Source: Sphingobacteriales bacterium 44-61 (GTDB taxonomy: Bacteria > Bacteroidota > Bacteroidia > Chitinophagales > Chitinophagaceae). Taken from it: a DNA stretch of 64,000 nt. Of this stretch, positions 1 to 60,775 are shown piece by piece; the stretch's first letter is position 1; every line of letters begins with the position of its first letter. The position numbers and the translations under genes are program-made. Under the pieces are notes generated by a model that was given only the letters and a program-made list of their open reading frames with translations, was not told where the DNA came from and made no database searches. The DNA is taken from positions 1 through 64,000 of the forward strand of contig MKTW01000018.1 in the NCBI GenBank assembly GCA_001898405.1, in the 5' to 3' direction.

Positions 1-333
1 TCATATCTCAGTTTAAATTTAAGCTTTTCGCTCTAACTTTAAACTGTCTGTTATATAGGGGCACTTACAGATAGGCTTGGCTTAAAAGCATTTGCTACAT
101 AGATTTTTTAATGCAAATATTAACACTCGCTCCTTTTCCCTTATCCTCTCTATGCTTTAAACTGGTTATCTACCGCCTATTAAACAAGTCTAATTTTTGA
201 TGAAATCAATCCAATAAAAATACTATATTTCACACTATATATTCTTTATGGATACCTGACCCAATACCTAAATTCATTTCTTGGCAGCCGATTTCCAATA
301 AGAGAATGTTACACAAAGTCAAATAAAATACAG
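1..333. other. AT-rich non-coding stretch at window edge
   Basis: No convincing coding region, RNA or repeat is visible here. The composition is AT-rich and matches the following orphan gene rather than the GC-richer core genes further right, so it probably belongs to the same accessory segment. Confidence 0.5.
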
Positions 334-59532: not shown

Positions 59533-60522
59533 TTATAACAATCCCTTCCCAACCAGGTACTCTGCGATCTGTACAGCATTCGTTGCAGCACCTTTCCGCA
59601 AATTGTCGGAAACGATCCAGAGGTTAAGGGTATTGGGTTGCGATTCATCTCTTCTTAAACGACCCACAAATACTTCATCTTTTTCGTGTGCATCCTTGGG
59701 CATGGGATATTGTGCATTCGAAATATCATCTACGAGCACCACGCCCGGAGAAGATGACAGCAGCGATCTCACTTCATCCAGTGTATAATCCTTTTCAAAT
59801 TCAACGTTGGCACTTTCACTATGGCCGCCCATTACAGGTATGCGCACAGTGGTAGCCGTTACACGAATGGAGTCATCGCGCATGATCTTGGCTGTTTCTT
59901 TCACCATCTTCATTTCTTCCTTGGTATAGCCATTGTCCATGAACACGTCGATCTGCGGGATCACATTCAGATCGATCGGGTATTTGTAAGCCATTTCACC
60001 GCTTACACCTTTCCGTTCGTTCATCAGTTGGTTCACTGCTTTCACACCGGTTCCTGTGACACTCTGATAAGTGCTCACCACGATCCTTTTGATGCCATAT
60101 TTCTTATGCAGCGGATTAAGTGCCACCACCATTTGTATGGTTGAGCAATTGGGGTTGGCAATGATCTTATCGTTTGCCGTCAGCACATCTGCATTGATCT
60201 CAGGCACCACCAATGGTTTGGCAGGGTCCATTCTCCAGGCAGAGGAGTTATCAATAACAGTGATGCCAGCTTCTGCAAACTGGGGGGCCCATTCCAGGGA
60301 AGTGCTGCCTCCGGCGGAAAATAATGCTACTGCGGGTTTAGCTGCAATCGCGTCTTTCAGGCCCACCACCTTGTATTTCTTACCCTTGAATTCCACTTCC
60401 TTACCCACTGATTTTTCTGAAGCCACCGGTACCAGTTCAGTTACCGGGAAATTCCGTTCTGCCAAAACCTGTAACATTTTGGTGCCGACCAATCCTGTGG
60501 CACCTACGACTGCAACTTTCAT
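59533..60522 (-). CDS. asd: Aspartate-semialdehyde dehydrogenase
   Basis: 329 residues, standard length. NADP site KVAVVGATGLVGTKMLQVLA, the active-site Cys in IIANPNCSTIQMVVAL (~129), STYQSVTGTGVKAVNQL and the substrate-binding His in VRIPVMGGHSESANVEF. It makes aspartate semialdehyde for lysine/diaminopimelate, threonine and methionine synthesis. The ~65-base leader contains a GC-rich REP-like segment (plus 60541-60564). Confidence 0.96.
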   Translation of the reverse strand: MKVAVVGATGLVGTKMLQVLAERNFPVTELVPVASEKSVGKEVEFKGKKYKVVGLKDAIAAKPAVALFSAGGSTSLEWAPQFAEAGITVIDNSSAWRMDPAKPLVVPEINADVLTANDKIIANPNCSTIQMVVALNPLHKKYGIKRIVVSTYQSVTGTGVKAVNQLMNERKGVSGEMAYKYPIDLNVIPQIDVFMDNGYTKEEMKMVKETAKIMRDDSIRVTATTVRIPVMGGHSESANVEFEKDYTLDEVRSLLSSSPGVVLVDDISNAQYPMPKDAHEKDEVFVGRLRRDESQPNTLNLWIVSDNLRKGAATNAVQIAEYLVGKGLL

Positions 60523-60588
60523 TGTTTTGTTTCCCCCTGCCCGCCTACGCTAAAGCTTCGGCGAGCCATTTAGTTATTAATAATGGTT

Positions 60589-60621
60589 AAAAAAAAACAG
60601 GCCCTCCGTTAGGAAGGCCTG
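60589..60621 (-). terminator. Intrinsic terminator of the candidate small RNA
   Basis: CAGGCC (plus 60598-60603) pairs with GGCCTG (60616-60621); nine consecutive Ts follow on the minus strand. Confidence 0.85.
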
Positions 60622-60743
60622 CCAAGTCTTTTATGTTACCATACATAACGCTGCAAACCTTCCCTAGGGACGTTTCTTTATGCGCTTTGTATGTTTCATC
60701 ATTTTCATATCGTTGTGCTGCTACACAAAATCCAGCAGCATAG
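60589..60743 (-). ncRNA. Candidate ~150-nt small RNA with own promoter and terminator
   Basis: On the minus strand a full promoter (60744-60775) is followed by three hairpins: a 5' stem TGCTGCT/AGCAGCA starting ~60740; a long irregular stem built from CATACA/TGTATG, GCGC/GCGT, AAAC/GTTT and TCC/GGA with loop CTAG (about 60690-60637); and an intrinsic terminator CAGGCC/GGCCTG followed by nine Ts (60621-60589). No protein-like reading frame of note is inside. It sits upstream of asd on the same strand but ends ~66 bases before its ATG, so it could also be an attenuated leader of asd. No known RNA family was recognised. Confidence 0.55.
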
Positions 60744-60775
60744 CAAAAATAACCTCCCGTTTTATTCACTCCAAA
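60744..60775 (-). promoter_or_regulatory. Consensus promoter of the candidate small RNA
   Basis: Minus strand TTTG (plus 60772-60775), 20 bases, TATTTTTG (plus 60744-60751). Both elements match exactly with ideal spacing. Confidence 0.7.

Follow-up and report, generated by a model that had tools for sequence, protein, structure and literature searches.

What is the structured element upstream of asd in this genome, and does it act on that gene? The window analysed here, the whole stretch of 64,000 nucleotides, carries on its minus strand the gene for aspartate-semialdehyde dehydrogenase (asd, 59533..60522), identified by the NCBIfam models TIGR01296 (429 bits, cut-off 324) and NF011456 (451 bits, cut-off 223). 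An earlier note had titled the region before it a new small RNA without a protein, had offered two alternatives, a regulatory RNA in its own right and a leader of asd that attenuation cuts short, and had suggested as checks a covariance search against Rfam and in relatives and a look for compensatory changes in related genomes. We conclude, with a probability of about 0.92, that asd is controlled by this element, a transcription attenuator of the classical, ribosome-mediated type. The results on which this reading builds are computational: a conserved leader ORF, the genes found next to the element, and competing pairings that co-vary.

The promoter elements described earlier are present on the minus strand: a −33 element TTTG at 60775..60772 and, after a spacing of 20 bases, the −7 element TATTTTTG at 60751..60744, an exact TAnnTTTG. 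Taken alone, the pattern is little above chance (six occurrences of TTTG-(18..22)-TAnnTTTG in the window against 2.2 expected) and constitutes weak evidence; its support comes from being kept in relatives. Section 15 of PMC9723704 locates the −7 box at −12 to −5, and transcription of the window copy probably starts near 60739. The gap of 35 nt between the −7 box and the leader ATG contains the 5' hairpin that had been noted before (60740..60716, minus strand), for which the fold gives 8+2 pairs rather than seven.

The key to the element is a leader peptide that the earlier note missed when it saw no plausible protein. An ATG-initiated ORF of 14 codons, MKMMKHTKRIKKRP followed by TAG, lies on the minus strand at 60708..60664 (ATG AAA ATG ATG AAA CAT ACA AAG CGC ATA AAG AAA CGT CCC TAG), is conserved in relatives and provides arm 1 of the attenuator. 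The composite stem with a CTAG loop, here the 1:2 stem at 60693..60640, was correctly seen (about 18 pairs in the fold against about 17 before), and the leader stop codon falls inside its loop. Straight after the stop codon comes region 2 (GGAAGGTTTGC, 60663..60653), the 5' arm of the antiterminator, which is complementary to the 5' arm of the terminator, region 3 (GCAGGCCTTCC, 60622..60612). Region 3 is therefore common to the antiterminator (2:3) and the terminator (3:4), whose 3' arm and T run are formed by region 4 (GGAGGGCCTG) and nine Ts at 60607..60589. The strong terminator reported earlier thus stands, with its hairpin at 60621..60598 and the Ts at 60597..60589, all on the minus strand. 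Leader ORF, complementarity of regions 2 and 3, and terminator are together what a classical attenuator is built from. The sequence from 60580 to 60750 folds at −55.5 kcal/mol, compared with −37.9 ± 4.3 in dinucleotide shuffles (z −4.1; 1 of 200 shuffles equally good).

In the mechanism we propose, RNA polymerase would start near 60739 and a ribosome would translate the leader. With ample charged tRNA, chiefly tRNA-Lys, the ribosome would reach the UAG codon and cover region 2, region 3 would pair with region 4 to form the nine-U terminator, and transcription would end after about 150 nt. A ribosome stalled on Lys or Thr codons would leave region 2 free to pair with region 3; this pairing would block the terminator, and asd would be transcribed. 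The amino acid sensed is most likely lysine, and the leader also carries Thr, Met and Ile codons. More Asd would probably be made only when lysine, threonine and methionine run short, and attenuation should yield a terminated leader RNA that runs from about 60739 to 60589 and measures about 150 nt.

A plain DNA search of 59 genomes yielded, besides the window's own, matches in 10 genomes at E≤6.3e-5, and asd lies directly downstream in all 10. The leader ORF was the stretch most frequently recovered. A weaker match (L017) precedes dapA (NCBIfam TIGR00674, 298 bits, cut-off 206), the product of which uses Asd's product for lysine. For searches with a covariance model (R1), we used a 37-row alignment and trained the model on leaders of asd and a single one of dapA; a Fulvivirga locus (L104) that had passed the first leader filter was dropped by judgement as unrelated. 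R1 listed 129 matches at E≤1.5e-6, spread over 118 of the 195 genomes of the window's family (genomes counted by hand); at least 12 of the 129 are training rows, and others may come from the same genomes as named training loci. The downstream gene, called by tblastn with the window's Asd, the DapA of L017 and the HisG of L142, is asd for 117 matches, dapA for 9 and hisG for 2, and one match lies at a contig end; as R1 was trained on asd leaders, part of this preponderance of asd comes from the model itself. Among the nine asd-type attenuators before dapA (L017, L138, L150, L151, L154, L156, L157, L159, L162), NCBIfam confirmed the gene in two (L017, L150), and the other labels rest on tblastn with L017's protein at 65–87% identity.

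At the looser threshold of E≤0.1, 168 of the 195 family genomes match, the weak matches including hisG leaders and chance. Eleven further family matches are weaker than E 1.5e-6 (L219–L229); seven of these stand before hisG, one stands before asd, and nothing showed at L225, L226 and L228. When R1 was run on 198 genomes of the order, no match outside the window's own family was better than E 3.5e-5, and among nine weak matches found there (L210–L218) only L211 had a leader-gene pair, as judged by eye. Of 80 named asd loci, 27 have a model match before asd at E≤1.2e-6, and 25 of these had served to build the model; the 53 loci where it gave no match include Mucilaginibacter, Pedobacter, Sphingobacterium, Hymenobacter and Dyadobacter, as well as a few with little upstream sequence. 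A MAG labelled Chitinophaga pinensis (L046) carries a match, and other entries so labelled carry none.

This distribution bears on the possibility that an independent trans-acting sRNA of about 150 nt merely happens to lie upstream of asd. Such an RNA would account for the element's own promoter, strong terminator and strong fold, and terminated leaders can act in trans, as described for rnTrpL of Sinorhizobium in passages of PMC7298713. Yet 128 of the 129 matches precede asd, dapA or hisG, so that independence from the downstream pathway is not what the covariance search in relatives found; the part most often recovered in the DNA search is a leader ORF, with an amino acid that matches the pathway; and R1 detected no other strong copy in the window's genome, where the next match (E 0.026) is a hisG leader. 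Five further weak matches inspected in this genome (L143–L146, L148) had no convincing pair of leader and gene, and inspection by eye of its dapA, lysA and two single aspartokinase genes showed no such leader. We therefore regard an independent sRNA as very unlikely. The earlier note's second alternative, an asd leader ended by attenuation, is strongly supported by homologues directly before asd or dapA, their conserved leader ORF and competing hairpins with co-varying arms; its title claim lacks support.

If the element is an attenuator of asd, its ORF should hold codons for the end products of the pathway; what we found is MKMMKHTKRIKKRP before asd and His runs before hisG. Lys, Thr, Met and Ile all derive from aspartate semialdehyde, the product of Asd. 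By the leader-picking rule, a leader ORF is present in 128 of the 129 model matches, the exception (L298) lying before asd, and at least three Lys occur in all 116 asd leaders and all nine dapA leaders. On average, asd leaders contain 4.4 Lys and 2.2 Thr (n=116) and dapA leaders 4.6 Lys and 1.1 Thr (n=9), whereas hisG leaders contain 0.9 Lys and 4.9 His (n=19, of which 17 were copied from loci inspected earlier, two pairs of these being identical). K, T, M and I together account for 0.51 of the residues of asd leaders and 0.41 of those of dapA leaders, and for 0.24 in a background of 2474 other small ORFs from the same loci; these composition figures are somewhat inflated by the leader-picking rule, which prefers K, T, M, I and H. 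In 26 leaders, pN/pS was 0.57 in the leader frame versus 1.14 and 0.66 in the other frames, which suggests a modest constraint at the codon level.

SRP RNA, 6S RNA, the lysine riboswitch and the Thr and His leaders are all Rfam families. When the whole window was compared with Rfam 15, only a tRNA at 2593–2664 reached the gathering score. No family, the five just named considered, did so at the element; the earlier note had judged by eye that the SRP RNA core does not fit. The same held for L142 (hisG), L300 (thrA-type), L112 and L150, where no family reached the gathering score. Two sub-threshold candidates, Phe_leader (26 bits of 55) and RsmY (25 bits of 57), were judged to be chance, though the former happened to point to the right type of leader. 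These comparisons weigh on a further explanation, a riboswitch with lysine or another metabolite as its direct ligand, the short ORF being incidental. It would be in keeping with a structured leader and an alternative terminator before asd, and a LYS element controls lysC1 of Vibrio natriegens according to a passage of PMC12925634. Besides the missing Rfam match, it is at odds with the alignment, in which we saw no aptamer-like conserved core and in which conservation lies in the codon-readable stretch, and with the hisG copies of the same layout, which have His codons in place of Lys codons. We consider direct metabolite binding extremely improbable.

Whether the two alternative pairings of the proposed attenuator are maintained was assessed by alignment-free swap tests; they replaced base-pair counting on an alignment of 100 matches, which was dropped because the terminator arms shifted between subclasses. 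An intrinsic terminator stands between leader and gene in the window (60621..60589) and in all 128 copies with a leader, each having a terminator hairpin of −8 kcal/mol or lower, and the 3:4 arms suit each other better than they suit a swapped arm in 124 of the 128. The antiterminator shares the 5' arm of the terminator, making the two mutually exclusive, and the 2:3 duplex is stronger than in shuffled windows in 127 copies and stronger than random swaps in 89 (p 2e-7). With kinship reduced by swapping only with the five leaders most like the copy's own but differing in region 3, a copy's own partner came out ahead in 82 cases and behind in 41 (p 1e-4). For arms 1 and 2, the native pairing surpassed the swapped one in 113/128. 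Region 3 is unusual in 27 copies; 15 of them form a better pairing with it than with the canonical version and 12 do not, the clearest counter-examples being L269, L241, L243, L249 and L263. Changed pairs are CCTTTCC/GGAAAGG (L124, L247), CTTCTCC/GGAGAAG (L139, L255), CCTCCCG/CGGGAGG (L259), CCCGC/GCGGG (L294) and, before hisG, CTTACC/GGTAGG (L165). Swapped partners are thus mostly worse, and the arms of antiterminator and terminator co-vary on average, with exceptions.

The geometry of the switch was explored in folding models in which ribosome positions carry an assumed footprint, so that all values are model results. For an RNA ending at region 3, the predicted probability of the antiterminator is 0.98–1.0 with the A site at codons up to Lys12, 0.63–1.0 at Arg13, 0.16–0.48 at Pro14 and 0 at the stop codon. 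Across 116 leaders, its mean falls from 0.94 with the ribosome 8–10 codons ahead of the stop to 0.01 at the stop; a ribosome placed there with the assumed footprint reaches into region 2 in all 128 copies. In these nascent-RNA models, a ribosome at the stop codon thus covers region 2, and one stalled on the control codons leaves it free for the antiterminator to win. The full-length equilibrium fold disagrees for the late Lys codons: it favours the terminator with the ribosome at Lys11 or Lys12 (P about 0.8) and the antiterminator with the ribosome at Lys5 to Arg9 (0.66–0.99). With no ribosome, nascent RNA up to region 3 favours the antiterminator (0.98) and the full transcript the terminator. 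Because of the equilibrium at Lys11/12, stalls there would need co-transcriptional kinetics; as modelled, the switch needs kinetic trapping or earlier stalling.

A terminator that outweighs the antiterminator in the full-length equilibrium could also be read as a constitutive one, ending an unrelated short transcript and insulating asd, with no regulated antitermination. Against such a reading, region 2 is complementary to region 3 beyond shuffles in 127 of the 128 copies and co-varies with it, and a Lys-rich leader ORF is not needed for insulation. Moreover, asd would require its own promoter, and in a search for exact TAnnTTTG on both strands of 3115 bases around asd (L115), the −7 box before the leader was the sole occurrence. 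We hold pure insulation to be as improbable as a riboswitch.

In relatives, the leader begins strikingly close to its promoter. TTTG-(19..21)-TAnnTTTG, with at most one mismatch tolerated in the −7 box, ends 5–10 nt ahead of the leader ATG in 103 of the 128 copies, compared with a mean of 0.17 in base-shuffled upstreams; the window copy is counted in the 128 and absent from the 103. The commonest gaps between −7 box and ATG are 7–9 nt (83/128), and the window copy belongs to a minority of 12/128 with gaps of 32–37 nt. From a box at −12 to −5 (PMC9723704, in the section cited), the 5' leader of the relatives would therefore be about 3–5 nt. Because of this promoter position in the 103 copies, the majority of leaders seem almost leaderless; the window copy does not. 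Such starts are rare in the phylum, with 5.5% leaderless 5' ends in the relevant passage of PMC9723704, which also describes the phylum as lacking Shine-Dalgarno sequences, and about 3.7% of 5' ends under 10 nt in that of PMC7366714. The sharp position of the AUG just behind the promoter offers a natural test of translation-transcription coupling on leaderless messengers. The 5' hairpin of the window copy (60716..60740) sits in a longer 5' leader than that of most relatives, which start almost at the leader AUG.

Of the known systems, the thrL attenuator of Escherichia coli is on the same branch, the aspartate family, and according to passages of PMC4132733 and PMC12925634 it likewise has a leader peptide rich in end-product codons and competing antiterminator and terminator hairpins. 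The asd element differs from it in the genes (asd, dapA), the Lys-dominated leader, the Bacteroidota promoter and the absence of any Rfam match at the gathering score. The uORFC-8-2 motif upstream of cysS in Rhodobacterales, as presented in part of PMC8632094, is similarly an attenuator from comparative genomics whose leader ORF has cognate codons, but for Cys, before a tRNA synthetase gene and in alphaproteobacteria. In the same phylum, Flavobacterium psychrophilum has structured 5' elements upstream of amino-acid operons; section 19 of PMC9723704 proposes leader-peptide attenuation upstream of amino-acid operons in Bacteroidota, with hisG and pheA among the genes that have conserved 5' elements. 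Neither asd nor dapA is among the genes named in that passage; asd may stand in a supplementary table.

The closest likeness to the near-leaderless copies is rnTrpL/trpL of Sinorhizobium meliloti, which in the passages of PMC7298713 has a 14-aa leader, begins at its AUG and gives rise to an sRNA through attenuation; the 7–9 nt between −7 box and AUG in 83 copies of the asd-type element resemble this arrangement. It differs in concerning Trp and alphaproteobacteria, and from the window copy in that copy's 35-nt gap. A wider reading would extend the likeness to function: in this family a nearly leaderless, Lys-gated attenuator on asd, dapA and, in some genomes, lysA would replace the lysine riboswitch, and its terminated RNA (roughly 110–150 nt), a small, almost leaderless mRNA, would act in trans on other aspartate-family genes as rnTrpL does. 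We regard this extension as unlikely.

Our literature search found no leader-peptide attenuator of asd or dapA, an earlier mention being possible, for instance in supplementary tables or in Lopatovskaya 2010. The attenuator is of a known kind, for a gene, an amino acid and a taxon without a description in the literature searched. To our knowledge, no leader peptide with Lys codons has been described. Known lysine control, as outlined in part of PMC12925634, relies on a riboswitch or on a regulatory protein, ArgP of E. coli being one example. The analysis gives a conserved element that Rfam lacks a function and a testable mechanism, which point to regulation of the lysine/threonine/methionine branch point in one Bacteroidota family, and the R1 model could go to Rfam.

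Other leaders were encountered alongside the asd type. The window's genome has a hisG leader, MQTILHIHHHHLAQAVSCDGIM, on the minus strand at G000:C2:380721-380843 (L142, the R1 match at E 0.026), where a His run (HIHHHH) stands directly before hisG and a terminator was seen by eye. Leaders of this type comprise L142 and 18 further loci of relatives, most of them recovered by R1 itself as weak matches; hisG was labelled by NCBIfam for L142 and L168, by tblastn for L165 and L299, and for the rest by the protein start read by eye. Lys-rich leaders were also seen before lysA (identified by NCBIfam) at L183 (G002, MTLIANIKTIKTKKPYLYG) and at L211, from another family of the order (G257, MMIYKHKSSKRFLPKW). 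L174 precedes lysA as well, but no convincing leader was found there.

A Thr/Ile-rich ORF (...ATTAIIITTTITTIR*) lies before the gene for the bifunctional aspartokinase-homoserine dehydrogenase of the same genome (L300; NCBIfam NF006959), at about 1262–1396 of the locus (G000:C19, upstream of 134158). Such an ORF occurs in 8 of 11 loci examined (L300–L306, L308); at these loci a small stem over the stop codon and no T-run terminator was seen, and the leader is possibly a translational or Rho-dependent attenuator. Its start is TTG in this genome, as judged by eye, and ATG, GTG or TTG in relatives, one example being MAFVSTYTTTTTTITTR in L305. With the leaders of asd, hisG and aspartokinase-homoserine dehydrogenase, at least three aspartate-family or His genes of this genome appear to have leader ORFs.
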